Shown: positions 3,954 through 52,150 of the stretch, piece by piece | Numbering within the stretch: position 1 is the first letter of the stretch | Layout of the letters: every line of letters starts with the position of its first letter | From: Eutreptiella sp. 'Long Island Sound 2002' | Taxonomy: Eukaryota > Euglenozoa > Euglenophyceae > Eutreptiales > Eutreptiaceae | Assembly: GCA_964036045.1 (NCBI GenBank) | Contig: OZ038385.1 | Coordinates: forward strand, 21,775,813-21,839,812 | Reading direction: 5' to 3' | Length of the DNA stretch: 64,000 nucleotides | Translations under genes and position numbers: made by a program | The notes under the pieces: model-generated | The model's database searches: none | Seen by the model: the letters and a program-made list of their open reading frames with translations, nothing else | What the model was told of the DNA's origin: nothing

Positions 3954-6900
3954 GTGGCCGTGTGAACATTGTTGTAGGGTTACCACAGTAGCAGAGGCCG
4001 GGTTCGCCCCACCGCGTCGATTTCTCGACATTGTCCTGGTGTGATGTCATGTGGGGTTTGGCCCCCTTTAACTCCAGCTGGACATCTTGCCTCCGCTGTG
4101 CCTGGGTTGGAAGTGGGAATTGGGATGAGAGGTGTTTTGTGTCTTCGCAGTGTTGTGATTTTTCCTCGTCAGTAATCAACTCCCTACCAGCTGTCGGGTA
4201 GCTCGGATTTCAAAAATGAACAGAAAAATGTGTCCATAGAGAGTGACGTTCGGCAGATTGGCGGCACGCCTCAGTACAAATAGTTGAAGGACATGTCACA
4301 AAAGGCAGATTTTCGAGTTCAGGAGATAGGCATAGCGGATAGGCAGATAGGAAGGAGCGATCCCTGGCCCCTCAGGCTACCTCTGTCGACCCCGATTGTC
4401 CCTGAATGGGAAAAGAATGGATACAGTGAGCGCTGGGGTCAGTATTCCGGTCCAACGACAACAATCAGAATACAAGCCTTCAATAAGCATCAATCGTGCA
4501 CACCCATGGTGAGCAGCCCCCAGAGGCCAATGGCTGTTGGGATTTTTCCATGTCCGTTTGCGACATACCATGCCGCTACCTCTCCCATCTTGCTACCGCA
4601 CACTGCAAATACCGCCTCTCCATGCTGGTTTGGCTTCATTTGTTGGCAATTCGTCATGAACGCATTGTATGCGCTCCGCAGATAGAGATGCGAAGGTGGA
4701 TCTACAATCCTGTGGGAGGCCTCTGGTTGCCATGTGAGCCCCAAACCGGGGAAGGGGGGGTGGTTGGAGCGGGGCTTGCACGTTTGCACCCCGGGATCGT
4801 CGGCTCTATGAGTGACAAAAGTTCCCTGAACCCCTTTTTATGTTATTGTTGTAGGGTTAGGAGGGATGGGATGCACGTTTAATTGCATTTCTGCGCCACT
4901 CGAAACTGAGTCACACCCAACCATCTTCTTGCACTAGGAAGAGAGCATAGATTGGTGACACACACGGTCTGTTTGCCCGGATTGACAACGGAAACCATCT
5001 CCGGCCATCGCAACTTGTCGAGGACTGAATTCTGACTTTGTTGTGTGATTCCGGCTGCTTACCAGCCATTTGCCGCCCGCGCTGTGTACATGTACCAACA
5101 CCATCGGTTTCTTGCATTGTCACGTGTCACCACAGTGCCAGAAGACCTTGTTCCGGGGCCAAGCAGATTTGACCGATTCATGTGTGCGCTAGCTATTCTG
5201 GTGGAATGCCGAGATGCTTTGGCTAGATGCGTCCCGGAGCAATCGAGCGACACCAAATGGGGGGTGCACAGAGTGAAAATGTGTCACAACGGTATGTTGC
5301 AGGTTGGCATCGGTTGCAGAGGGGCTGCGCGTGTTGGCTGCCTCCCGCAGTGCCCACTGCTGCTGGATAGTCATAGAGCCCTGGGACAAAACGCCATCCA
5401 CAAATTCGCTTGGTAGGATTTGGTACGAGGTTCATGGCATGAGACCAGAAACATACAAAATTGAGCAGTTGCGAAGCTGCCGTTGCTTTGTGGCAGGTTG
5501 TTGCCCTGGGGCAGGAGGCGTTGCCAGGTGGGCGCCCTAAAGGAGCACAAAGGTCGGATTTACGTTGCCACCCTCCCTCGTTCGCGTAAGGAGTGGCATC
5601 ATGTTGGCGGACTTCCCACCTCCTCAGTGTCCATCCCAAACCGACCATCGTACAGCATGCACAGGGCGTTGCCGTTGCACCGTTGCACAATATGTACTAC
5701 ATTGGGTCGGTCCACATGTCGACGGGGGCCCGTCCGCATCCGGGCTGTTCCTGTCCACATGTTCTCGACAATTTAGTGTCTTCTTGTACCCGGAACGAAT
5801 CATGTTACCGTTCAGCAATTTGCCTTCGAAAGGCGGGTGCTTTGGTTGTGCACTGCGAGATTGTCTTCGTTTCGGCCGGGGCGTGCACTGCTGCGTGCCA
5901 CATTCTCTTTGTATGCCCACTCCCCCTCTGTTCCCGATCTGCGCCTCTGTACAAAATTTTCAGGGCTTTGGGAGGATGTTGTCGTGGATGGATTTGTCCC
6001 GTGCGACCCCGCGAATGGTCTGCCGCGGTACTTGCGAGCGAAGGTTTGTTTGCCCTTGTTCTTCGGGGACATCTGCAGGATTTCATGCACAGCGCCAAGT
6101 CTGAGAGTCTTTTGCGATGCAGCGCATAACCTTTTTCCAGGAGCCCTGCGGCAAGTCAGCTGGGTTTTTGTCTCTCCGCATGTCCACAAATATCCTCTTT
6201 GCGTCTGCTCAGAAAGCAAATTCCCACATTCAGCTGCTAACCACTGCAGACCGTGTACAGGGACCCTGCCTTCATGCCCAGCAATTGCTTCCAAACTACC
6301 CTCCCAACCCTTTCTGGCAAAAACCCCACCCCTTGGAGTGCTCATCCTGCGGCGCAATGTTTGGGTGATTGCCACAAAACAAAGGGCACGGTTTCCTGCA
6401 GCGCCTGCAGTGTGCAGGTCTGGTAATTATTCAAAAGTGTAGACACCCCTGTTTGCCATTCTTTCGTGTTGAACTGGTGTGGCATCCCATTTGCCCCCCC
6501 TTCTTTTCACCAATGGTGCCACAAGCGCGCCTGCAAGCGTGCAGTGCGCTCGGGGTGTTCTCAAGGTGTACAAAACGTGTTCTCAAAGTATACAAGGGTA
6601 TTGCATGTCTGTGTGTGTTGTGCTTTCGGCCCCAACCACGCTCCATGCGGGTCCGTGGTAAAATTTTGTAAAATTTTTTTTTGCTAAGTTTCAAAACTTA
6701 GTAAAAAATATTTATTTACTAAGTTTTTCCTCTAGGAGTGGGTTTTTTACTAAGTAAATTACTTAGTAGAAAAAAATTTTTTTACTAGGTAAATGACTTA
6801 CCCAAAAAACAAGTTTTCCCACTTCTGACTGCCACTGGGCCCACTTGTGGGCTGAATTTGATATTGTCCCCCCACTCTGAAATCCACGCTTTGTTGCGTG

Positions 6901-9900
6901 GCCCCAAAAAATTAAGATTTTCCATTTCTGACTGCTGCCACTTCTGATTCTGCCCCCCGCTCTGAAGCGGTGGGGACCCCCCAGGCGGCAGGGGTTATGT
7001 AGCCACCTTGCCCATTTGTAGGCCACTTCTGATTCTGCCCCCCCCCTTTTTTGCCCTTCGTGTTTGCAACGGTGTCCTCCAAGCAAAGCTTTGCGGATGG
7101 CACCGGGGCATGCCCGGAGAAATCGTCCACAATGAGTCCCGTGGGCACGGATGATACCCTTGGAATACGCATGCCCTGTACTTCTCCTTGTTGTTTGTGA
7201 TCCTCTACCCTTGAGCTGGAGCTTACTCATCACTCATGGGTAAAGAGTCACAGACACATGCCAAGGTGCAGTTCATGTGGGGGACCGACAGTCAAAATGC
7301 ATTGCATCATTAGACACCTTATTGTGGTGTATTACTGGTGGGCTGTCCAAACCGCTCTCAGTGCGGATTGGGACGCAATGGGCGTGGTGTGGGTTGTCCG
7401 CGACTCTTTGTGGAATGCCTCATGTGCCAGTGCACAACGCTGCAAACCGCTGGTTAAATCGTGGGCAGAGCGCACTTTGCAAACGTCGTCCATAGATATG
7501 TCTTTTGCCCCACCCCTGATTGTGGCGCAAGTGTATAATTTGAGCAATTGGCATTGGGTGCTCCGCTTGTTGTTGATTGCCCCCAACGCGCGAATACCGT
7601 TGCCTTAAGTTTGACCCAGTGTGCGACTGGCCACACATTATTGGGGCAAACCACGAGGAGTTGGCTGTTGTGGATTTGATTGCCAAGCGAGAAGGCGTTG
7701 AATCGCAACAGCGGAAGAAGTGGTCAAAGATTTTGGATGCTTTTGGTGCCCTTGCATTTACAATTGCACCCCTGCATTCCACCTTCATCCAGCAGATTGA
7801 TGGTGTCAATTGCCATCCGGCATGTCTCTTGACGTTGCATTGTGCTTTGTCTCGGCGCGTTGTCAAGGGCATATTGCAAGTGCCACAAGATCGATTGTGG
7901 TTGTTGCGTGAAATGGCTGAGGCTACTCTGTACTTCAGTCGTTCAAAGTCGGCCTCCACCCCAAGGACCCCAGCGGTACACTGGGAGGTGGCTCGGATGT
8001 ACCCCCGAACCCAAATTCGTGGACCCCGTTGGCACATGCTTTTCTTGTGATGGCACACCTCACATGGTGTGCCACGAATGTAAGGTTCTTCATTGTGCCT
8101 TGCATGTGTCCATCTTGTGTCAATCGGAGATTTGTGTTGGGTTGCGCCAATTCTGGATGGGCAACCTTGCTGCGGTTGCTGTTGCTTCTGCTGTTGTTGC
8201 TGCTGCTGCTGTTGACACCCGTCCTGGTGTGCCTACTGTTGTTGCTGCTTCTGCTGTTAACACCCATCGTGGTGTGTGGATCTGTCGCAAGTGGTATGCA
8301 GTGCCTCCTCAATATCCCCAAAATGCTGTTGGTCAACTGAGAAATGACCAAGCATTTTGCACCGAGCTGCAAGGAGAGTTGAAAACGGCTCTGTTTGGCC
8401 AATAATCCCACAGTCCGAGGCAAACCGCGCCATGCAGATACCAAGGCCGACTTGATTTTCAAGCATGTCTTTTGTAACTACTTGTAAGTAGTTCCCAAAG
8501 ATGTTGGCCATGGCCCTGTTAGGACTCTTTTCTTGAGCCTGACTGTGTTTCTACTGCCCGACCCCAATTATATTTTGTTATGTTGGCCGAGTGCCAATAA
8601 TTGGTGTGCATGATGGTTTGGCCTGGGTGGGGCGCCACTGACACAAGTGGCCGAGAATCGACTCGGGGGCCTTGTGCCCTTAAACAAAAGTACCACCTAC
8701 CATGGAAGTGTTGACTACCTTGTTTAAAACGGCAGCCCGGGGGGGGGGGACTTAGTGGAAAGAGGTAAAACTTAATAAAAAAAAATTTTGAAAAAATTTT
8801 TTAAAAATTTTTTACTAGGTTTTACCTCGTTTGTACTAAGTTTTACCAAATTTTACTTAGTGTTACCTCGTCCGGTACTAAGTTTTACCAAATACCCGCT
8901 CCATGCTCTGTTATGAGTGCAGCCCCAATTACAAGGATAGCCACAAGAGTCGGCGGATGTCTGTTGTGTGCCAAGAATGAGCTTTTTAGACATCAATGAA
9001 CCGGGCCACAGGGCACAACCATCTCTCTGAAATTGTCATGCAATACACCCACCCATCCCAACATTCAAGGTGTTTGGGGCTTGATGCACTCCTAGGGCTC
9101 TGTTGCTTCTCCCCGAGGGGATGGCGTCCCTCCTCCCAGTGGAAGGGTGTGATTCCCATGCTTCGCACGATGAGCTGGGGCTACCCCCCGACAGATATGT
9201 GGTGTCTGAGACACAAGCAAACTCGTTTATGCTGCTTGAAGTTCAATCAAGTCTGATTTTATGCCAGTCTGAGCCACAAGCACAGGTAAAGCACTCTGCG
9301 CTCTGCAACAGAATATTCGTTGCGGTTTGTGTTGTCGGCACAACTGGATCAGCCCCCTCCTTAATGAAATTTCATTCTGCTGCTCCATGGGGGCTCTCCC
9401 AACGTGCAGACGGTGCCCAGTGCTATTGTGAGGGCCATCCCAACTGTGCTCAGGGTGGCGAGCTGTGGCCCACTGTTATGCACAAGGCTTACGCGAAGGT
9501 CTACAAGGGGTACCACATGACAGTGCATACCGACCTCCCAGTCTTTTTGGCAGATTGCACTGGCTTTCCTTGCTCTCAGATTCGGTTTGTGCTTTTCCCT
9601 GCCTCTTCGTGGGACAGGGTCGTGATATGTGCCAGGGTAGGGGCTGTCTGAGGCTGTGGGATGCGGCTGAATGAGTGCGTTGCACCAGATAGAAATCTGG
9701 CATGGCGGACACATGAGACCGAGGAAGCCGGATACACACCGTGATCCCGGCTGCAAAATGGTGGAAGTAGCAGATTGCCTGCACTACCTGACTACAGTAA
9801 TCCACACCCGCACGCACGCACACACACACACATACACACAATCACGCACGCACACACGCGCGCACGCACGCATGCGCATATGGACGCACACATGGCGGGT

Positions 9901-10809
9901 CTCCAGTAAAACCTGGCGAAAACTTTTTTTGAAAAATTTCTACTAGGTTCAGTTTACTAGGTTTACTAGGTTTTACTAGGCTGTTGTCTTCATCCTCTTT
10001 TCAACGATCTACCTTTACAGCTCAGCCATTGCTCGCAGTTGTCACGGCTTCACAGCCCAAACAGAAAATAAGATTTACTCCATCACACTCCAGGTTAGGG
10101 TTACTCCCCGGGGCGCATTTGAATGGCAAGGGAGGCCCAATCTACCATTCCGGATCACCTGTGTGATCTACCATGTGCAGGCATTTGGTCAAACCTAGTA
10201 CACGCTCTAGTAAGACCTAGTAAAATCTAGTAAGAGCACTCGACGCATTAGAATGTCCAGGGGTGGTGATTTTCTACCCGTCGAAATGGTCCCTGCCCTA
10301 CCCCTGTCCTGTTCGCTTCGAGCTGTTCCTCTTTTGCACTGCAGGGGGGTTCACTGCCCAGTTTTTCAAGTTGCCTGCTGTTTTGGCACCCGATTCCATT
10401 TTCCCAAGCAAATAGAGGGCAAACCGAAAAGGCAGGCGTTTTGCCCTCAAAGCAGTGATGATGTGCCGTAGTTATTATTGACGAGGGGTTTGCAGTGGTC
10501 TGTGCTGCTGGTCCTTGTGTGGTGCCAAGGGATGAGAAGTGGATGTTGGAGGGTATGCTCAGTTCACTGTTACACACTGCCATTGTCCACACATTCTTCT
10601 CTCTCCTTCGTACCTTCAGATTTCAGTCGCATTTGGATGTGGCCTCGTCTTGGGCCAAGTTGTGCCGTTGGCTCGAAAGTGGGGACGTGGTCGGGTGCAG
10701 TGTGCCAGAGGAGCAGACAATGGCAGGTTTTTTTTGATGCCACACCTTTGTTGCTTTCAGGCATATACAAGGGGAAGGACATTGAGTGCCAGATTATGGG
10801 AGCGTATTT
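3817..10809 (+). CDS. Calpain-like protein gene, six exons, partial
   Basis: Calpains (peptidase family C2) are cytosolic cysteine proteases with a papain-like core. Six exons can be joined with canonical GT-AG introns and matching phases at all five junctions, giving 218 codons without a stop. Family landmarks appear in the right order and spacing: FVDLSFPP and WRRPQEF, then FDRFMCALAILVE, then KWGVHRVKMCHNG, then WEDVVVDGFVP, then ELWPTVMHKAYAKVY and DCTG, then SSWAKLCRWLESGDVVGCS, then GAY. Where active calpains have Cys after the conserved Asp this protein has Arg, and the HAY motif reads GAY, so it is probably inactive as a protease. Calpain-like proteins with altered catalytic residues are known from kinetoplastids. 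The N-terminus and the end of the core (NPWG region) are not found. The gene may continue beyond the satellite or be truncated by it. Confidence 0.68.
5142..5291 (+). CDS. Calpain-like exon 2, active-site Cys region
   Basis: The exon reads EDLVPG, then FDRFMCALAILVE, then KWGVHRVKMCHNG. In active calpains the Q-G-x-L-G-D-C-W motif lies where this protein has V-P-G-P-S-R-F-D-R-F. The residue after the conserved Asp is Arg (codon CGA), so the nucleophile seems to be missing. The acceptor is gtgccag|AA, with an alternative at cacag|TG six bases upstream that keeps the frame. The donor AACG|GTATGT leaves one base, matching the next exon. Confidence 0.68.
5964..6043 (+). CDS. Calpain-like exon 3
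   Basis: An 80-nt exon encoding GLWEDVVVDGFVPCDP. This matches the calpain G-x-W-x-x-V-x-V-D-D-x-x-P segment between the active-site helix and the AYAK motif; the second Asp of the usual pair is Gly. The acceptor is aaaattttcag|GG and the donor is GCGAAG|GTTTGT. The split Gly codon (G from the previous exon plus GG) restores the N-G-L-W continuity expected of the family. Confidence 0.72.
7577..8136 (+). pseudogene. piggyBac-like transposase remnant, frameshifted
   Basis: The first frame (7577-8050) contains AVVDL and, 12 residues after the Asp, RKKWSKILDAF. This resembles the V-D and R-x-W region after the last catalytic Asp of piggyBac (DDE_Tnp_1_7) transposases. About 120 codons further on, in another frame (8037-8136), lies a Cys-rich finger with the spacing C-x2-C-x7-C-x2-C-x4-C-x2-H-x4-C-x4-C. 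Its core C-x2-C-x4-C-x2-H-x4-C matches the C-terminal zinc finger of piggyBac transposases. A frameshift near 8030 separates the two. The N-terminal two thirds and the first catalytic residues are not recognisable. The family call is moderate. Confidence 0.4.
8168..8280. repeat. Imperfect (CTG/GTT)n tract
   Basis: CTG, GTT and CTT triplets alternate, interrupted twice by a related block (gacacccgtcctggtgtg and aacacccatcgtggtgtg). It follows the Cys-rich finger and would encode Ala/Val runs in that frame. I regard it as microsatellite expansion inside the dead element. Confidence 0.75.
9454..9584 (+). CDS. Calpain-like exon 4, AYAK motif
   Basis: It encodes GGELWPTVMHKAYAKVYKGY and LADCTGFPC. 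Calpains have an E-x-W, then E-K-A-Y-A-K, then D-L-T-G motif in this order and spacing, making this the most diagnostic exon. The acceptor is gtgctcag|GG (phase 0) and the donor is GATTCG|GTTTGT, the same donor hexamer as exon 3. The two leftover bases CG join an A from the next exon to give Arg. Confidence 0.75.
9803..9892. repeat. CA/ACGC-rich microsatellite
   Basis: About 90 bp of CACACA, ACGCACGC and CGCGCG words within intron 4. It is a simple repeat. Confidence 0.9.
9905..10236. mobile_element. Small inverted-repeat element (MITE-like) with ACTAGG words
   Basis: The left part (9941-9980) holds tandem ACTAGGTTT units; the right part (10191-10235) holds the inverse, CCTAGTA units. The sequence around 9906-9945 (GTAAAAC, a T/A-rich run, then ACTAGG) resembles the right subterminal region of the transposon in intron 3 (about 8768-8826). 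I infer a short non-autonomous relative inside intron 4. Exact ends and a target duplication are not clear. Confidence 0.4.
10620..10726 (+). CDS. Calpain-like exon 5
   Basis: It encodes SSWAKLCRWLESGDVVGCSVP. This matches the calpain segment L-W-x-x-L-x-x-x-x-x-x-G-D-L-I-G-C-S that precedes the active-site His. The acceptor is taccttcag|A, supplying the third base of the split Arg codon; the donor is GGCAG|GTTTTT. Confidence 0.7.
10727..10760 (+). other. Possible 34-nt intron
   Basis: The stretch begins gtttttttt and ends ttgctttcag. Without removing it, the exon 5 frame stops two codons later. Removing it joins the split Gly codon and continues into exon 6. Thirty-four bases is unusually short for a spliceosomal intron, though very short ones are known in protists. 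Confidence 0.45.
10761..10809 (+). CDS. Calpain-like exon 6, active-site His region
   Basis: It encodes IYKGKDIECQIMGAY followed by a split codon. In active calpains this region reads G-L-x-x-G-H-A-Y-S; here the His position appears to be Gly (GAY), with several extra residues before it. The donor is TATTT|GTACGT. If this donor is not used the frame runs on to a TAG at 10856. The next exon (NPWG region) is not found before the satellite begins. Confidence 0.45.
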
Positions 10810-44760: not shown

Positions 44761-46533
44761 AAGGCAACTGGACAGGCATGCATCACACATTACCTTGGCA
44801 ACTTCACAATGTGCTGAACCACATGCTTCCATGTGTGTTGTAGTGAGCAGTGCAGCATGTATGACACAGAAGCGGGGTGGGTGCCATTGGTGGGAGACAC
44901 GAATGCTGCTGAAGGCGGTATGTGCATGGGATGATATTCACATCTCGGTTCAGACTCTGATCGCCATTGTGATTACTGCTTGGATTCCGAGCACGCACAG
45001 TTGATTTATATAGTTGCAGATTGTGTGCGTGAGACAAATGCATGATTGCATGGTAGGTTCTGGATGAAACACAGCCTGCAGATGTGTTATTGTGTGCAAA
45101 GGCAATGGACATTGTCAGGGGTGCAGAAGTAAATGTGTGATGTGTACCTGTACAATGGGTTTGCAGTCAATATGGGTGGCAGGGTGCGTGTCATCTGGAT
45201 CCTGCCCTGCAATGACATGTTTGTTTGTTTTAGTACTGTGAAATAAACCAGCATGAAAAGCACTGTACAGATTTTATTACATGCAAAGGCAACTGGACAG
45301 GCATGCATCACACATTACCTTGGCAACTTCACAATGTGCCAAACCAAATGCTTTCATGTGTGTTGTAGTGAGCAGTGCAGCATGTATGACACAGAAGCGG
45401 GGTGGGTGCCATTGGTGGGAGACACGAATGCTGCTGAAGGCGGTATGTGCATGGGATGATATTCACATCTCGGTTCAGACTCTGATCGCCATTGTGATTA
45501 CTGCTTGGATTCTGAGCACGCACAGTTGATTTATATAGTTGCAGATTGTGTGCGTGAGACAAATGCATGATTGCATGGTAGGTTCTGGATGAAACACAGC
45601 CTGCAGATGTGTTATTGTGTGCAAAGGCAATGGACATTGTCAGGGGTGCAGAAGTAAAGGTGTGATGTGTACCTGCCCAATGGGTTTGCAGTCAATATGG
45701 GTGGCAGGGTGCGTGTCATCTGGATCATGCTCTGCAATGACACGTTTGTTTGTTTTAGTACTGTGAAATAAACCAGCATGAAAAGCACTGTGGAGATTTT
45801 ATTACATGCAAAGGCAACTGGACAGGCATGCACCACACATTACCTTGGCAACTTCACAATGTGCTGAACCACGTGCTTCCATGTGTGTTGTAGTGAGCAG
45901 TGCAGCATGTATGACACAGAAGCGGGGTGGGTGCCATCAGTGGGAGACACGAATGCTGCTGAAGGCGGTATGTGCATGGGATGATATTCACATCTCGGTT
46001 CAGACTCTGATCGCCATTGTGATTACTGCTTGGATTCTGAGCACGCACAGTTGATTTATATAGTTGCAGATTGTGTGCGTGAGACAAATGCATGATTGCA
46101 TGGTAGGTTCTGGATGAAACACAGCCTGCATATGTGTTATTGTGTGCAAAGGCAATGGACATTGTCAGGGGTGCAGAAGTAAATGTGTGATGTGTACCTG
46201 TACAATGGGTTTGCAGTCAATATGGGTGGCAGGGTGCGTGTCATCTGGATCCTGCTCTGCAATGACACGTTTGTTTGTTTTGGTACTGTGAAATAAACCA
46301 GCATGAAAAGAACTGTACAGATTTTATTACATGCAAAGGCAACTGGACAGGCATGCATCACACATTACCTTAGCAACTTCACAATGTGCTGAACCACATG
46401 CTTCCATGTGTGTTGTAGTGAGCAGTGCAGCATGTATGACACAGAAGCGGGGTGGGTGCCATTGGTGGGAGACACGAATGCTGCTGAATGTGGTATGTGC
46501 ATGGGATGATATTCACATCTCGGTTCAGACTCT

Positions 46534-46549
46534 GATCGCCATTGTGATT
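46534..46549 (+). repeat. Target-site duplication, 5' copy
   Basis: GATCGCCATTGTGATT, the last satellite bases before the LINE. It is identical to 52135-52150. Confidence 0.96.
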
Positions 46550-46550
46550 G

Positions 46551-46882
46551 ACAGTGAATCTGTGAATGGCTCATTACACCGGCGACAATCTGATAACTGT
46601 GCACTGGTTGCTTGGGGCCCTCGTGGTCCCCTGTGACATCGGTCCGGATATTCCCCTCAACTGGGTGGCTAATACATGGAAGCTCAGAGCTGTGGCCCGT
46701 TCAGGGTCACTGGCAGTTGGCCGATATCAAGACCTGCGCCCGTACAGGGCAGCGTGCAAGGGTGATTCAGGCCGTTTTCTGTGATGGCAAAGATGGTTCT
46801 ACCATGAATGCTCCACAGTGTGAGTCTCTGACCTATCAGCTCTGGTTGGTGGTGTAGTGGACCACCATGGCTATCACGGGTA
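46551..46882 (+). pseudogene. SSU (18S) rRNA 5'-domain fragment forming the LINE leader
   Basis: It is collinear with the 5' domain of eukaryotic SSU rRNA. It starts at the segment CAGTGAA-CTG-GAATGGCTCATTA (46552-46576, two mismatches to the common eukaryotic form). It continues through GATAACTGTG (46592), GGCTAATACATG (about 46667), GATATCAAGACC (about 46722) and GTGATTCA, and ends with CCTATCAGCTCTGG, then GTGTAGTGGACCACCATGG and CACGGGTA (about 46832-46882). The variable stretches between are not generic and may match the host's own SSU. It is the same strand as the LINE. The SSU similarity stops at ACGGGTA, just before ORF1, and does not resume at the LINE 3' end. Confidence 0.85.
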
Positions 46883-46990
46883 CAAGTGGGACTGGAAGAC
46901 CGCACAGACACACTACAACCAGAACCGGCCAAGACTACAATCGTAGTGGAGTGCCCACCGGAAACGGGCATTAGGACGCGAGACGCGTTT

Positions 46991-48376
46991 ATGAAACGGA
47001 TCAACGGCCACCAGTCTGACGTCGCATCCACCATAGCAAGCAAAGACCCCCACAACACTTTTCGGTGGAAGTGCGCATCCGAACACACCGCGGGGCAAAG
47101 TGGGTCGCACGCCTGGAAACTACACCTGCCCATGCAATTGCTACCTCGCTTGACACAAGCACCGCAGACCATAAAACAAGAGGAGGAAAACGCCGGCAAC
47201 CCTGGACCCTACTGGCTCACCGAAACGGACTACGAGAGCCTGTATATACTGAGACAACAATACACGGAACAGAAAGAAGACAGAATAACGTCCATACAGG
47301 AGATACTGGACGACCTGGACAGGGAACAGCTCGAGCTAGGAAGGAGCATCGCATCCTTCCTCAAGGGGTTCCGACCAGTGGACTCGTACCGTCTACTGGT
47401 ACAATTCCACCCCGACGCAGACCGACGCTTGATTGCCCAACTACTAAAGGGCATGAAAAGCTACGAACTGGTCCACGTGATGACCAACGTCATCCTCAAC
47501 CGCAATATTTGGACACAATCAACAAGCCGCTCTAGGGACATCAAGCGGCCACCAAAACCGACTAGGCACGACACCACGACGGTGTTCGTAGGGTGGACAC
47601 AGGGCGCAGGAAACGACACGGCGAAAGTCGTGGCATCATTCTTTGGATGCTGGACCAGCTGGAAGCCGGAACCCAACATGTGGAGCGACGCGGGCTGCGC
47701 CTACGCCTCCCTCCAATACCAGCACGCCACAGCAGTGGCCCTCAGTGCCGGACAATACATCGGAGTGGCACCCGGTGGATACGTCCACATCACGCTAGGA
47801 GACGACAACACGGACGCACAGGCGGCAGAGCGCATCGACCAGATGCTCGCACACAAAATGCCGCAGGAAACGGGCGACGACGCGGCCTTCAGGAGACGAA
47901 TGAAGGCAGGGAAACAACTAGGCTCAGACATGATGACTGAACGCGTCATCAAGGAAATCAACAGGGAAAAGCAGCTGCTCGCAGAGCCGGAACCCATCAA
48001 CGTGGCGGATTGGGACGAGGCCATTCTGAACGAACTCGGCCATACCACTAGCGACGACAGCCCATCAGACACCCACCCACATTTGGCCACCATGGACACG
48101 GATGAAACCCCCGTCCAGCAACCAGACAACCCGGCAAAACCAACCACAACACACGCACGGCAATCACACCCGGCACAGAAAACCAAGGCCCACAACAAGA
48201 CACCACAAAAAACGCCCACAAAAACAACGCCACCACCAAAAAAGAAGAAGGCGGCACCTGCATCGCCACAAACCAAACAACAAGCAGACAGTACGGCTAC
48301 CTTCACCGTGGACGACAAACACAAGGGGAAAGGGAAGGGGCCGCCAAAAAACCCGCAGGGCAAAGGAAAAAAGTGA
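46991..48376 (+). CDS. LINE ORF1 protein (RNA-binding, possible RRM)
   Basis: A 461-residue protein from the first ATG. The frame is open from 46832, so a non-AUG start further up, including within the rRNA-derived leader, cannot be excluded. LINE ORF1 proteins bind the element RNA and form the transposition particle. Counting from the open frame at 46886, residues 233-237 (VFVGW) and 269-278 (AGCAYASLQY) resemble RNP2 and RNP1 of an RRM fold; no CCHC knuckles are visible. The region before is rich in Glu/Asp/Arg and probably helical. The last ~100 residues are Lys/Thr/Pro-rich, ending GKGKGPPKNPQGKGKK, a plausible nucleic-acid-binding tail. The stop TGA overlaps the ORF2 frame. No disruption is seen in ORF1. 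Confidence 0.75.
   Translation: MKRINGHQSDVASTIASKDPHNTFRWKCASEHTAGQSGSHAWKLHLPMQLLPRLTQAPQTIKQEEENAGNPGPYWLTETDYESLYILRQQYTEQKEDRITSIQEILDDLDREQLELGRSIASFLKGFRPVDSYRLLVQFHPDADRRLIAQLLKGMKSYELVHVMTNVILNRNIWTQSTSRSRDIKRPPKPTRHDTTTVFVGWTQGAGNDTAKVVASFFGCWTSWKPEPNMWSDAGCAYASLQYQHATAVALSAGQYIGVAPGGYVHITLGDDNTDAQAAERIDQMLAHKMPQETGDDAAFRRRMKAGKQLGSDMMTERVIKEINREKQLLAEPEPINVADWDEAILNELGHTTSDDSPSDTHPHLATMDTDETPVQQPDNPAKPTTTHARQSHPAQKTKAHNKTPQKTPTKTTPPPKKKKAAPASPQTKQQADSTATFTVDDKHKGKGKGPPKNPQGKGKK
48367..48373 (+). promoter_or_regulatory. Candidate -1 frameshift site A AAA AAG
   Basis: In the ORF1 frame the last codons are GGA AAA AAG TGA, forming an X XXY YYZ slippery heptamer directly before the stop. 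Slipping back one base places the ribosome in the ORF2 frame at GTG (48373), and that frame is open from 48106. A 6-bp GGCCCC/GGGGCC hairpin lies at 48429-48452, further away than the usual 5-9 nt. Reinitiation at the ATG at 48391 is the alternative. Confidence 0.5.
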
Positions 48377-48390
48377 GGTGCCTGTTCCTC

Positions 48391-50646
48391 ATGCCCTGCA
48401 TCGCCATCATGGCCCTCCTCCTACTCCTGGCCCCCACACATACGAAGGGGCCGGTATATCTACTCCCCGTGAACCGGAGAGTCCGCAGACAATATACCCC
48501 GCCGCTACGGCACCGGCACGGCTACGCTCGGGGCCCCAACCCCCACAGTTACCGTATATGGCGGCCAGGCCTACTCCTCCTCTATACCGTCTGTTTCTTC
48601 CACACCCCGACCGCCCCTATCACGGCAGCACCATGCCGCTACCATGCACCTGTCTCGATCACCACGGTAACCAGCCCATATAACACGCGGTATAACACCA
48701 ACTGGGTCCTCCCATGCGGGGATGTGCACCCCAACCCCGGGCACCGTAGGATATATCAGCTCCGGCGGGGATGCCGGGATGTGCGGGGACCCCCCATATC
48801 GTTGCTTGACATTGAGGAGTACGCTCAACACCTGGTGGTCAACACCAATCGACGGTATGACAGTCTAGACGACGCAACCACCGCAAAGGACCACGACATG
48901 AAACTTGCCTCCTGGAACATACAAGGAGCACAGGGATCCGTCAGCCTACAACGCTGGGCCAGTACCCTCCACCTGATCAGCCAGTGCTGTATCGACCTTT
49001 GCGGCATCCAGGAGTATAACCCGTGTTTCCCTAAACCAGAGGCCGCCACAACAGCACTCAATAACGATTACAAGTGCTACGCTGCGCCTGGGACCGAACC
49101 ACGGATAGCTTTCATTGTCCGGAACTCTGTGGTCCCCCACATACTCGAAACGTTATACTCACCCAACGGTTTAGCAGGGGCCATCAGGATACAGCTCCCA
49201 AACAGCCCCCGCCGCACCATTGCGTGTGTGTACTCCAAATTCAACCAACAGGACAAACAAGAGGTAGACCTCTTTCTGCAGTCCCTGAGACCTTACGACA
49301 TCATTATGGGGGACTACAACGATGACATCTGGTCACCCAACCCGACACGCCCGTGGCAGGAAGACCTGGCCAACGGAGTGTTCCTAGACCCTTTGCACGC
49401 TAGCAGCCAACCCCCGGACCCCCGGCAATACTATACCCGCATCCCTAGGCATGGACGCCCTCGTCGCCTAGACGCCATCTTGATTAAACAACAAATACCG
49501 AACATACCCTGGACCTACTATGACACCATACAAATGCCCATATCGGATCATGCTCTGGTCCTGCTTGGGGTCCGATGCAGGATAGGGGCCCCCGACCCAC
49601 CACGCAGAAAACCACAGCCCACAGTCGTGAAGTGGTATACCAAACAATTTCAACAGTTTACTAACACCATATCCACACTACCCGTAACAAACAACGACCC
49701 ACCCCTACGCACGGCACGACGGATCCTATCGGCTATAGCGCACGCGGCGCGGCCACGACAACCCACGCGCGCAAAGACAGCGGCCACCGCAAGCTGGTCT
49801 GAAACCACGGACCCCAAAGCACGGTTACGTGAGTACGGCGAAATACAAGAACAACACATACGGAGACAAATCGGCAAACTGCGCCGAGCAGCAGTACACA
49901 AATCGGGATATTTTTATAAAATGGTCAAGAGATGGCGCACGGGACTCATAGCCCAAGACACACCGCAGCCCCCAATAGGAGGAACACAGTACGTACTCAA
50001 CCACTTTGCGGGCGACCCAACATACGACGAAGACGCGTGCCGACAACTCATACAAAAACATGTGCGGCACCGCACGTGGAACACAACGACCCCCACATAC
50101 GAGGAGTACCTGCGGTGCCTTCGGGCACCAAAGAATAAATCTGCCGGGCCCGACGGTGTCCCCCCACACCTACTCCGGCACCTACCGGACCACGTGCAGC
50201 GGCAACTTTACCAGGCGATTGTTGCAGTCTGGAACGGACAGCACATCCCAGTGGCTTGGCTGCAGTCCAGGGTAGTGCTCATCTATAAAAAGAAAGATCC
50301 CCAGGGGCCACAAAACTACCGGCCAATCTACGTATCCACGGCCATATATAGCATACTCACACGCCTACTCCTGACGCGTATATCGGGGGCCTTGACCCCG
50401 GGACTATTGGACATACAACATGGTGCCACACAGGGCCGAAACACCACAACGTTAGCCACAAAACTACTAAACGACGAAACAACCACTCTGACGTCCTCGC
50501 CAATATGGGCGACAACCTGCCCATGGATTCCCAACAACCACAACCCCATGATATTGTCATCACAGGACAGATCATGCCCACGCCTGCCAAGGCATGGATC
50601 ATGCAAGTGCGTAGACAAAAGCAAACACCAGACGTACACTGGGTGA
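48391..50646 (+). pseudogene. LINE ORF2, N-terminal part: 2A-like motif, endonuclease, start of RT
   Basis: Numbering from the frame overlap at 48373. Residues 4-20 are hydrophobic (FLMPCIAIMALLLLLAP) and a second hydrophobic run (GLLLLYTVCFF) follows. A 2A-like CGDVHPNPGH lies at about 115-124. The APE endonuclease has all its motifs: WNIQG (Asn182), IQEY (Glu214), GDYND (Asp314, Asn316), LDAIL (Asp367) and SDH (Asp392, His393); it nicks the target DNA. The reverse transcriptase begins with KSAGPDGVP (589-597), IYKKK (637) and NYRPI, then QHGATQGRNTTTL. After about 50480 the frame loses RT similarity and stops at 50646. Motifs A-E with the catalytic aspartates are absent, implying an internal deletion and frameshift. 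Confidence 0.88.
48718..48744 (+). other. 2A-like motif GDVHPNPGH in ORF2
   Basis: It matches the 2A core D-(V/I)-E-x-N-P-G-P except at the Glu (His) and at the last residue (His, codon CAC, instead of Pro). 2A-like sequences at ORF2 N-termini are known from trypanosome and several animal LINEs. In the classic mechanism the final Pro is needed for ribosome skipping, so this copy is probably non-functional there. Confidence 0.75.
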
Positions 50647-51980
50647 GCTGGCTCCCCATGAAGCATTACAGACGGAACGCGTGGACACCCTGGCTGTGGG
50701 GACAGGTGCGATGGTGGGGGATGGGCGCCCCCTGGGAACGGACACCCCGCCTCTGTTCCCAGTGTGGCCACCAACACGGAGCATCAGTGCAGTCGAAACT
50801 AGCTTACTGTCCTGCCTGGAGCGATTTCTGGGACCTGTGGCGCAAGAGCTGGACTGATTGGGCCCCATACACGCGCCAATGGCTGCAAGCGGCCGACAAC
50901 CAAGAACTATGGCTCTGTGTCAGGCTGCTCATACCACTATCCCTCGTCGCCGCCATACCCACTGCGGAACGACACAAACTGCGAACGGAGGTGGGCCTGT
51001 TCCAGTTTCGCATGATACAGTCCGTCCAAACACTAAGACGAAAGTACGCCGACCCAACACCACAACAACCACCGTCGCCTCTGTGGCTCACCAAATACGT
51101 TGCACAGACACTTCCGCCGCGAGAAACGCCCCAAAACCTACGGCACCACGTCGGGGCGCCCACGTGGTGCGGCGCGAAACGCAAACGTAAGGCCGAGGTC
51201 ACAACGGCTGTCCAAATCGATTCCGGCCAATGGTTACAAGATGCACGCAGCGCGGGCGATAGTGAGGCAGTGGCATGGTTTGTTGCACGAGCAACTAACA
51301 CAGGGCAAGACGACCACATAAAGAAACGTCAGCGCCTCAACGTTGACACACAACAGTGGGAACAGTACAAGACGACCACAGACAGGCTGGTTTCTGAACA
51401 TGCTCAGCGAGCACGGGACATATTCCACAAAGCTCACGTAGAGGCGGTGGCGAGACAACACCTGCACACCCTACACATGGGCTACACCAACACACTGGCG
51501 GCTAAAACAGACTACCACAGGCTCGTCACAAAACTAGTCGACGAACAGAGACAAGCACAGCGACTGCAAGACACACACGCACACCTATACCAAATACGTA
51601 GGCAATGGTACGAACAAGCGAAGGACGACACAAGGATGTGGTATGCTGACGCAAAACTGCTGCTGATGATCAGTGACCGATCCCGGAGGCTGAGCGATGG
51701 CACCAACAGGCTACTTGTCCTGCACCAACAACAAGCGACCTACATGTGGCAGCAGCAGACACACCTGACTGCCATGGCACAGTACTACCAAGACTCCTGC
51801 AAACACAAGACAACACAATACTGGCAAACATCCCGACCAGCCCGACAGACAATATACCTGATACGGAAGCGGCCACGGGAGCACTGGGACCCCACTTTGT
51901 GGGAAGTCCCGTTGCAACCGCTACCGAAACGCCACAAAACGCACTGGGACCCAAATGAGTGGGAAGTACCAATGACATGA
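50505..51980 (+). pseudogene. LINE ORF2, C-terminal part, out of frame
   Basis: About 490 codons in a different frame from the preceding ORF2 part, which it overlaps by 142 bp. It carries CSQCG...KLAYCPAW (about residues 85-105), resembling the C-terminal zinc knuckle of LINE ORF2 proteins, though the usual His five residues before the last Cys is Ser. A long Gln/Arg/His-rich, probably coiled-coil segment follows. The end has two copies of HWDPxxWEVP. I infer that this was the C-terminus of the same polyprotein before an internal deletion. A separate ORF3 is less likely. Confidence 0.6.
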
Positions 51981-52134
51981 CCACACCAACCTCAATGGGA
52001 AACCATGGGGGCACAGTCACGAGCTGCAGCCCGTATGCATACCCTGGCTTCGCCGAAATCTGTATCTTACATCGAACTTGGTCCACTGTGGCCCTTGGCA
52101 CTTATGAACTGGCCTTTTTGATAAAAAAAAAAAA
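51981..52134 (+). other. LINE 3' UTR and A12 tail
   Basis: A short 3' UTR of about 140 bp ending TTTTTGAT followed by twelve A at 52123-52134. There is no AATAAA signal and no SSU rRNA similarity at this end. Confidence 0.85.
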
Positions 52135-52150
52135 GATCGCCATTGTGATT
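52135..52150 (+). repeat. Target-site duplication, 3' copy
   Basis: GATCGCCATTGTGATT follows the A-tail directly; the satellite monomer resumes from here with actgcttgg. Confidence 0.96.

Follow-up and report, generated by a model that had tools for sequence, protein, structure and literature searches.

R7 is a LINE of ribosomal DNA (rDNA) that belongs to SSU genes. R8 has been described from the 18S rDNA genes of hydra (PMC5035012). For R2, processing of co-transcripts by an HDV-like ribozyme is described, together with template jumps to U12 RNA and tRNA (PMC3414825). A further class, the LINE chimeric retrogenes, consists of the copy of a cellular RNA and, joined to it in sense, a 5′-truncated LINE, with repeats on either flank; those described are bipartite, come from mammals and Magnaporthe, and have ribosomal RNAs among their partners (PMC2104539). 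A set of 18 28S/L1 chimeras is also reported, of which 83% are sense, with a median fragment of 269 nt (PMC13174262). The locus studied here carries SSU rRNA sequence fused to a LINE, and it is most likely a known kind of accident, a LINE chimeric retrogene, not a new rDNA-dwelling element.

The insert and its target site

The window (the whole 64-kb stretch of DNA analysed, from a host assembly of 2.28 Gb in 2,205 contigs) contains a 525-bp satellite, one monomer of which is interrupted at 46550-52134 by a single insert that ends with A12. Its parts are as follows; a slash marks a junction.

46534-46549, + strand: left target-site duplication (TSD), GATCGCCATTGTGATT, identical to 52135-52150
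46550-46882, + strand: SSU rRNA fragment, about SSU nt 77-409, sense (Rfam SSU_rRNA_eukarya; host rDNA alignment)
46881-46882, + strand: TA common to SSU (GGTA/ACGG) and LINE (CCCATA/CAAG) at the fusion; LINE alignments start at 46881 and SSU ends at 46882
46883-48376, + strand: LINE ORF1, 3′ part; homologues P0010, P0016, P0041 and others continue upstream
48373-50475, + strand: LINE ORF2, endonuclease and start of the RT (Pfam PF03372; identity to P0001)
50475-50476, + strand: site at which 1,549 bp are deleted internally by comparison with copy L049, where the extra sequence is present
50476-52122, + strand: LINE downstream coding remnant and 3′ UTR, 97.9% identical to L049
52123-52134, + strand: A-tail, 12 A
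52135-52150, + strand: right TSD, 16 bp, identical to 46534-46549

The two TSDs form a perfect 16-bp pair that encloses the SSU part, the LINE part and the A-tail. Within the 64-kb window the 16-mer GATCGCCATTGTGATT occurs 91 times with at most one mismatch, and two of these occurrences are those at the insert. At all of the other 89 places the site is empty, the 16-mer running straight into ACTGCT[T/G]GGATT. Because a single TSD pair and a single A-tail surround the two parts, SSU and LINE arrived together, in one insertion event. The TSD, the A-tail and the empty sites together are the signature of one target-primed retrotransposition.

The satellite array with its 525-bp period extends over about 11000-64000 of the window and was recognised by the spacing of the 16-mer; the tandem-repeat listing, whose longest period is 500, omits it. 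Upstream of the array, short clusters of related motifs, TACTAAGTTTTACC and CTAGTAAAATCTAG among them, lie at 6660-6820, 8760-8895 and 9900-10230.

The SSU rRNA piece and its junctions

The Rfam SSU_rRNA_eukarya match covers 46517-46898 (77.6 bits, E 6.8e-19); the first 33 bases of this match belong to the satellite and TSD, and those past 46882 to the LINE. SSU positions are numbered from the Rfam SSU start in rDNA stretch L002. When 46550-46882 was compared with the rDNA of the host, the alignment was gapless and 330 of 333 positions were identical (99.1%) in 14 of the 14 rDNA loci read, with the same three mismatches (46552, 46595, 46654) in every one. The assignment of the front ~330 bp to the 5′ domain of SSU rRNA, proposed earlier in a sequence-only reading, was thus borne out. 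In a genome search with 46550-46890 as query, 40 places were scored of 510 candidates (the window and 39 others); the 39 match query bases 1-333 at 99%, and the 14 loci read were taken from them. The host SSU is divergent. Folded by itself, the SSU piece is unremarkable (z -1.5).

Two rDNA fragments that end in non-rDNA sequence were also seen in the genome, at G000:C5:146847948-146848880 (L055) and G000:C2:126142783-126143715 (L056). The former is an 855-bp piece of spacer plus SSU and the latter has non-rDNA sequence at one end; among the short flanks tested in these two, no LINE match was found.

At the fusion, the SSU gene reads ..ACGGGTA/ACGGG, the LINE reads ..CACCCATA/CAAG and the insert reads ..ACGGGTA/CAAG, leaving a 2-nt overlap, TA. 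On the LINE side the sequence is SSU/CAAGTGGG, that is, GGTA/CAAGTGGGACTGG. The switch to LINE sequence at ACGGGTA had been correctly placed from the sequence, with the addition that its TA is common to both partners. At the front, rDNA (..GGGATT/GAGAG) and target (..TGTGATT/ACTGC) share a 4-nt overlap, GATT, which forms the last four bases of the left TSD and also precedes the SSU piece in rDNA. Under random joining, an overlap of at least 2 nt is expected with P about 0.16 and one of at least 4 nt with P about 0.016. The TA overlap is not significant and, taken alone, uninformative, so RNA ligation before reverse transcription could also account for the fusion; the GATT overlap fits micro-homology joining of the cDNA end to the target.

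Two other routes to such a junction were considered. Ligation at the RNA level, in which a broken LINE RNA acquires an SSU rRNA fragment at its end and the joined molecule is then reverse transcribed without a jump, would yield the same product and is just as compatible with the sense orientation and the direct fusion. It has been named as an alternative for the 28S/L1 and U6/L1 chimeras (PMC13174262), and the TA overlap could be due to chance (P about 0.16). We regard it as unlikely, as a template jump accounts for the overlap at the fusion with no need of a ligase. Alternatively, two separate events (DNA recombination) or a mis-assembly could have brought the SSU fragment and the LINE together, and rDNA fragments ending in other sequence, such as L055 and L056, do exist in this genome. 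Against this stand the single perfect 16-bp TSD enclosing both parts, the 89 other monomers, all of which have the site empty, and the direct contact of SSU with LINE, no third sequence lying between them at the fusion; such an origin appears extremely improbable.

The LINE and its other copies

The N-terminal part of ORF1 is absent and its reading frame is cut by the fusion. A motif spanning the fusion point was found in 16 of 110 fetched homologous proteins, and all 16 have ORF1 residues before it, up to about 487 in P0041. P0032 also runs upstream of the fusion point, in a shifted frame. Since ORF1 of the homologues continues upstream, the fusion lies inside ORF1, and the sequence-only reading was mistaken in putting ACGGGTA just before ORF1 (16 of 16 homologues with the motif continue upstream). 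The N-terminal part of P0041 ORF1 contains DGDVEPNPGP at residues 104-111, which we take to be a 2A-like motif, and GDVHPNPGH early in ORF2 of the window (48718-48744) is presumably a degenerate form of the same. Forms close to GDVHPNPGH occur in four relatives.

ORF2 carries an Exo_endo_phos endonuclease (Pfam PF03372, E 3.5e-8) and is 97% identical to P0001 up to residue 701 of that protein. P0001 has endonuclease and RT domains, the RT spanning residues 639-850. The 1,549-bp deletion takes away the greater part of the RT domain together with sequence beyond it, and RT-bearing relatives map across the gap; a stretch like the deleted one is also present in L050. The ends of the deletion have no shared bases. 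A spliced intron was considered for this stretch and rejected, the ends being without GT-AG and without shared bases. An RNase H domain was likewise set aside, for Pfam lists none in P0001, P0006 and P0009 at E 0.01. Downstream, the open frame at 50505-51980 has 69 protein homologues. With the ORF1 start lost and most of the RT domain missing, the window copy is probably dead. The LINE part is 94.6-97.9% identical to long stretches of four fetched copies, a figure that also includes differences among source copies; by their identities both parts look recent. A search of a viral contig collection found no relatives of the LINE in viral contigs.

Other copies of the LINE were collected with 46850-47250 as query. 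Forty places were scored of 631 candidates (the window and 39 others), and 29 loci were read. The 39 other scored places match from 46881 onward at 97-99% identity over about 370 nt; none of them has SSU at the junction, and none of the 29 loci read has SSU upstream. In the 45 bases upstream of the fusion point, LINE sequence continues in 27 of 29 loci; in L038 it does so for 25 bases only, and in L034 an inverted piece of the LINE 3′ end is found there. Over the 1.5 kb upstream, 15 of 29 copies have no break before the end of the locus, and in the other 14 the breaks lie at scattered points. Five of the broken copies (L011, L013, L017, L027, L034) have other or inverted LINE sequence past the break and are therefore rearrangements rather than simple truncations. 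Rfam detected rRNA in only one of the 14 broken copies, L034, and this was LSU.

LINE sequence common to five copies extends for at least 6.1 kb upstream, and for about 7.1 kb in three, so the 5′ truncation of the window LINE amounts to at least 6.1 kb of this common sequence. No Rfam rRNA match was obtained in the upstream stretches L040 and L041 or in L048 and L049, and a blastn comparison of L039-L051 with the SSU rDNA stretch L002 gave no match at E 0.001. For ribozymes, no family reached the Rfam gathering score in L040, L041, L048, L049 or the window. Apparent common 5′ ends at 3.27 kb and 4.24 kb upstream proved to reflect the truncated ends of the reference copies L039 and L041; LINE sequence goes on in other copies. 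A family-wide rRNA 5′ leader was dismissed, there being no SSU among the 39 other scored LINE places or the 29 loci read.

These results bear on the suggestion that the LINE family resides in SSU rDNA, with ACGGGTA as its insertion site and use of the rRNA promoter. All 14 rDNA loci read run on as GGTA-ACGGGAAATC with no insert after ACGGGTA, and the window copy sits in a satellite and has a TSD and A-tail of its own; together with the lack of SSU in 39 of 39 other scored copies and in 29 of 29 read, this leaves the suggestion unsupported. With 14 of 14 rDNA sites empty, 0 of 39 copies with SSU and the LINE extending at least 6.1 kb further upstream, an rDNA-resident family was rejected. It had been predicted that many copies with unrelated 5′ ends would tell against such a family and favour a one-off jump. 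This holds to a large extent, as 14 of 29 copies have scattered breaks within 1.5 kb; it falls short in the five that have other or inverted LINE sequence past the break.

A related possibility is that a 5′-truncated LINE once lay in an SSU gene after ACGGGTA and that a read-through rRNA-LINE transcript was retrotransposed, either from an rDNA family or from one such copy. The LINE can land beside rRNA sequence, as in the L034/L047 copy, which adjoins an LSU rRNA fragment; further, the rDNA count covers assembled units and the LINE count covers scored candidates. The uninterrupted ACGGGTA in 14 of 14 rDNA loci, the 0 of 39 scored LINE places with SSU, the five copies whose common LINE sequence extends another 6.1 kb or more in the 5′ direction and the lack of a ribozyme or rRNA match in L040, L041, L048 and L049 all speak against read-through, which we consider highly unlikely.

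L034 (extended as L047 and L051; G000:C2 near 30.8357 Mb) is a 5′-inverted copy of the LINE of the window, and we take its inversion to be of the twin-priming type. Its TSD, CAGTGGCAACGCTGGTG, is 17 bp as read by eye, and no SSU rDNA match was found in the 9.4-kb stretch L047. The LINE break in L034 and the SSU-LINE break of the window lie no more than about 3 nt apart, the partners at the shared break region being an inverted LINE 3′ end in the former and SSU rRNA in the latter. Given 14 breaks in 1.5 kb, we estimate that a match this close has a chance of roughly 5-7%, so a hotspot is only a lead. It would mean that ..CCC/ATA/CAAG.. in ORF1 is a favoured stop or template end on the LINE RNA, and that there the RT of the family repeatedly leaves its template for other nucleic acid. 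This is quite doubtful; if true, rRNA-LINE chimeras would recur at the hotspot in the host genome.

Probable origin of the chimera and its relation to known systems

The insert is best explained, with good probability, as a one-off LINE/SSU-rRNA chimeric retrocopy made via a template jump during target-primed reverse transcription. The LINE protein complex would have made a nick in one satellite monomer, from which reverse transcription of the LINE RNA started at its poly(A) tail. The RT may then have copied the LINE RNA to about 46883, within ORF1, and jumped onto SSU rRNA at GGUA in the 5′ domain, with a 2-nt overlap, to copy about 333 nt. The cDNA end would have been joined to the target at the 4-nt GATT overlap, leaving the 16-bp TSD. 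The 1,549-bp deletion may already have been in the RNA template, or may have occurred in the course of this event or later. Observed are the parts and how they are arranged, the A-tail within the TSD pair, the empty sites, the identity to host SSU and the lack of SSU in the other copies examined; the jump, and when it took place, are what we infer.

A one-off chimera agrees with the sense, gapless SSU piece, with a LINE truncated at the fusion where other copies are truncated elsewhere, with the TA and GATT overlaps at the two junctions, with the lack of the fusion in all 39 other scored copies and with a layout that matches published chimeras. The jump from LINE RNA to rRNA, raised as one of two options in the sequence-only reading, is supported by the single TSD/A-tail unit and by the lack of SSU in the other copies examined. 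On the other side, the rRNA portion comes from the interior of the molecule, whereas full-length RNAs are found in the chimeras described first (PMC2104539), and the places scored were 40 of 631 LINE and 40 of 510 SSU candidates.

Fixed-site insertion in SSU genes, as in R7 and R8, was not seen here, since 14 of 14 rDNA loci were uninterrupted (40 of 510 candidates scored), and no 5′ SSU flank of that kind was present in the 39 other scored copies. The insert shares with R7 and R8, as far as these are described (PMC5035012 for R8), the adjoining of LINE and SSU sequence; unlike them, it lies outside rDNA, carries its SSU within the inserted unit and belongs to a LINE whose other copies examined are without SSU. 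With the systems described in PMC3414825 it shares the template jump, here a probable one, of a LINE RT onto stable RNAs. Unlike R2 as described there, it has no rDNA target, and no ribozyme family reached gathering score in the five stretches named above.

No title or abstract opening in the open-access literature searched describes an 18S/LINE chimera, and "18s" gave no match in the main text of PMC13174262. The 28S/L1 chimeras of that report are the nearest, being mostly sense rRNA fragments of a few hundred nt at the LINE 5′ end, for which ligation or template switching is proposed; the insert differs from them in having SSU instead of LSU, a different LINE and a host with divergent SSU.

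Three of the five features in the definition of chimeric retrogenes given in PMC2104539 are found in the insert: a 5′-truncated LINE, direct joining in the same orientation and flanking direct repeats. In place of the full-length 5′ RNA copy of that definition it has SSU nt about 77-409 only. As for random truncation sites, 14 of 29 copies break at scattered points, yet the break in L034 is within about 3 nt of that in the window. The insert is thus like those retrogenes, as described, in that the copy of a cellular RNA and a 5′-truncated LINE meet directly, in the same sense, between short direct repeats, and unlike them in its internal SSU fragment and in the internal deletion of its LINE. 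The tempting reading of a new rDNA-resident LINE family is removed as unsupported. What the locus offers is a clean case in which a LINE enzyme has apparently taken up SSU rRNA, and for which the empty sites, the TSD, the tail and the donor gene of the host are all available. It is one more argument that the ability to jump to abundant RNAs as templates may be a general property of LINE enzymes.
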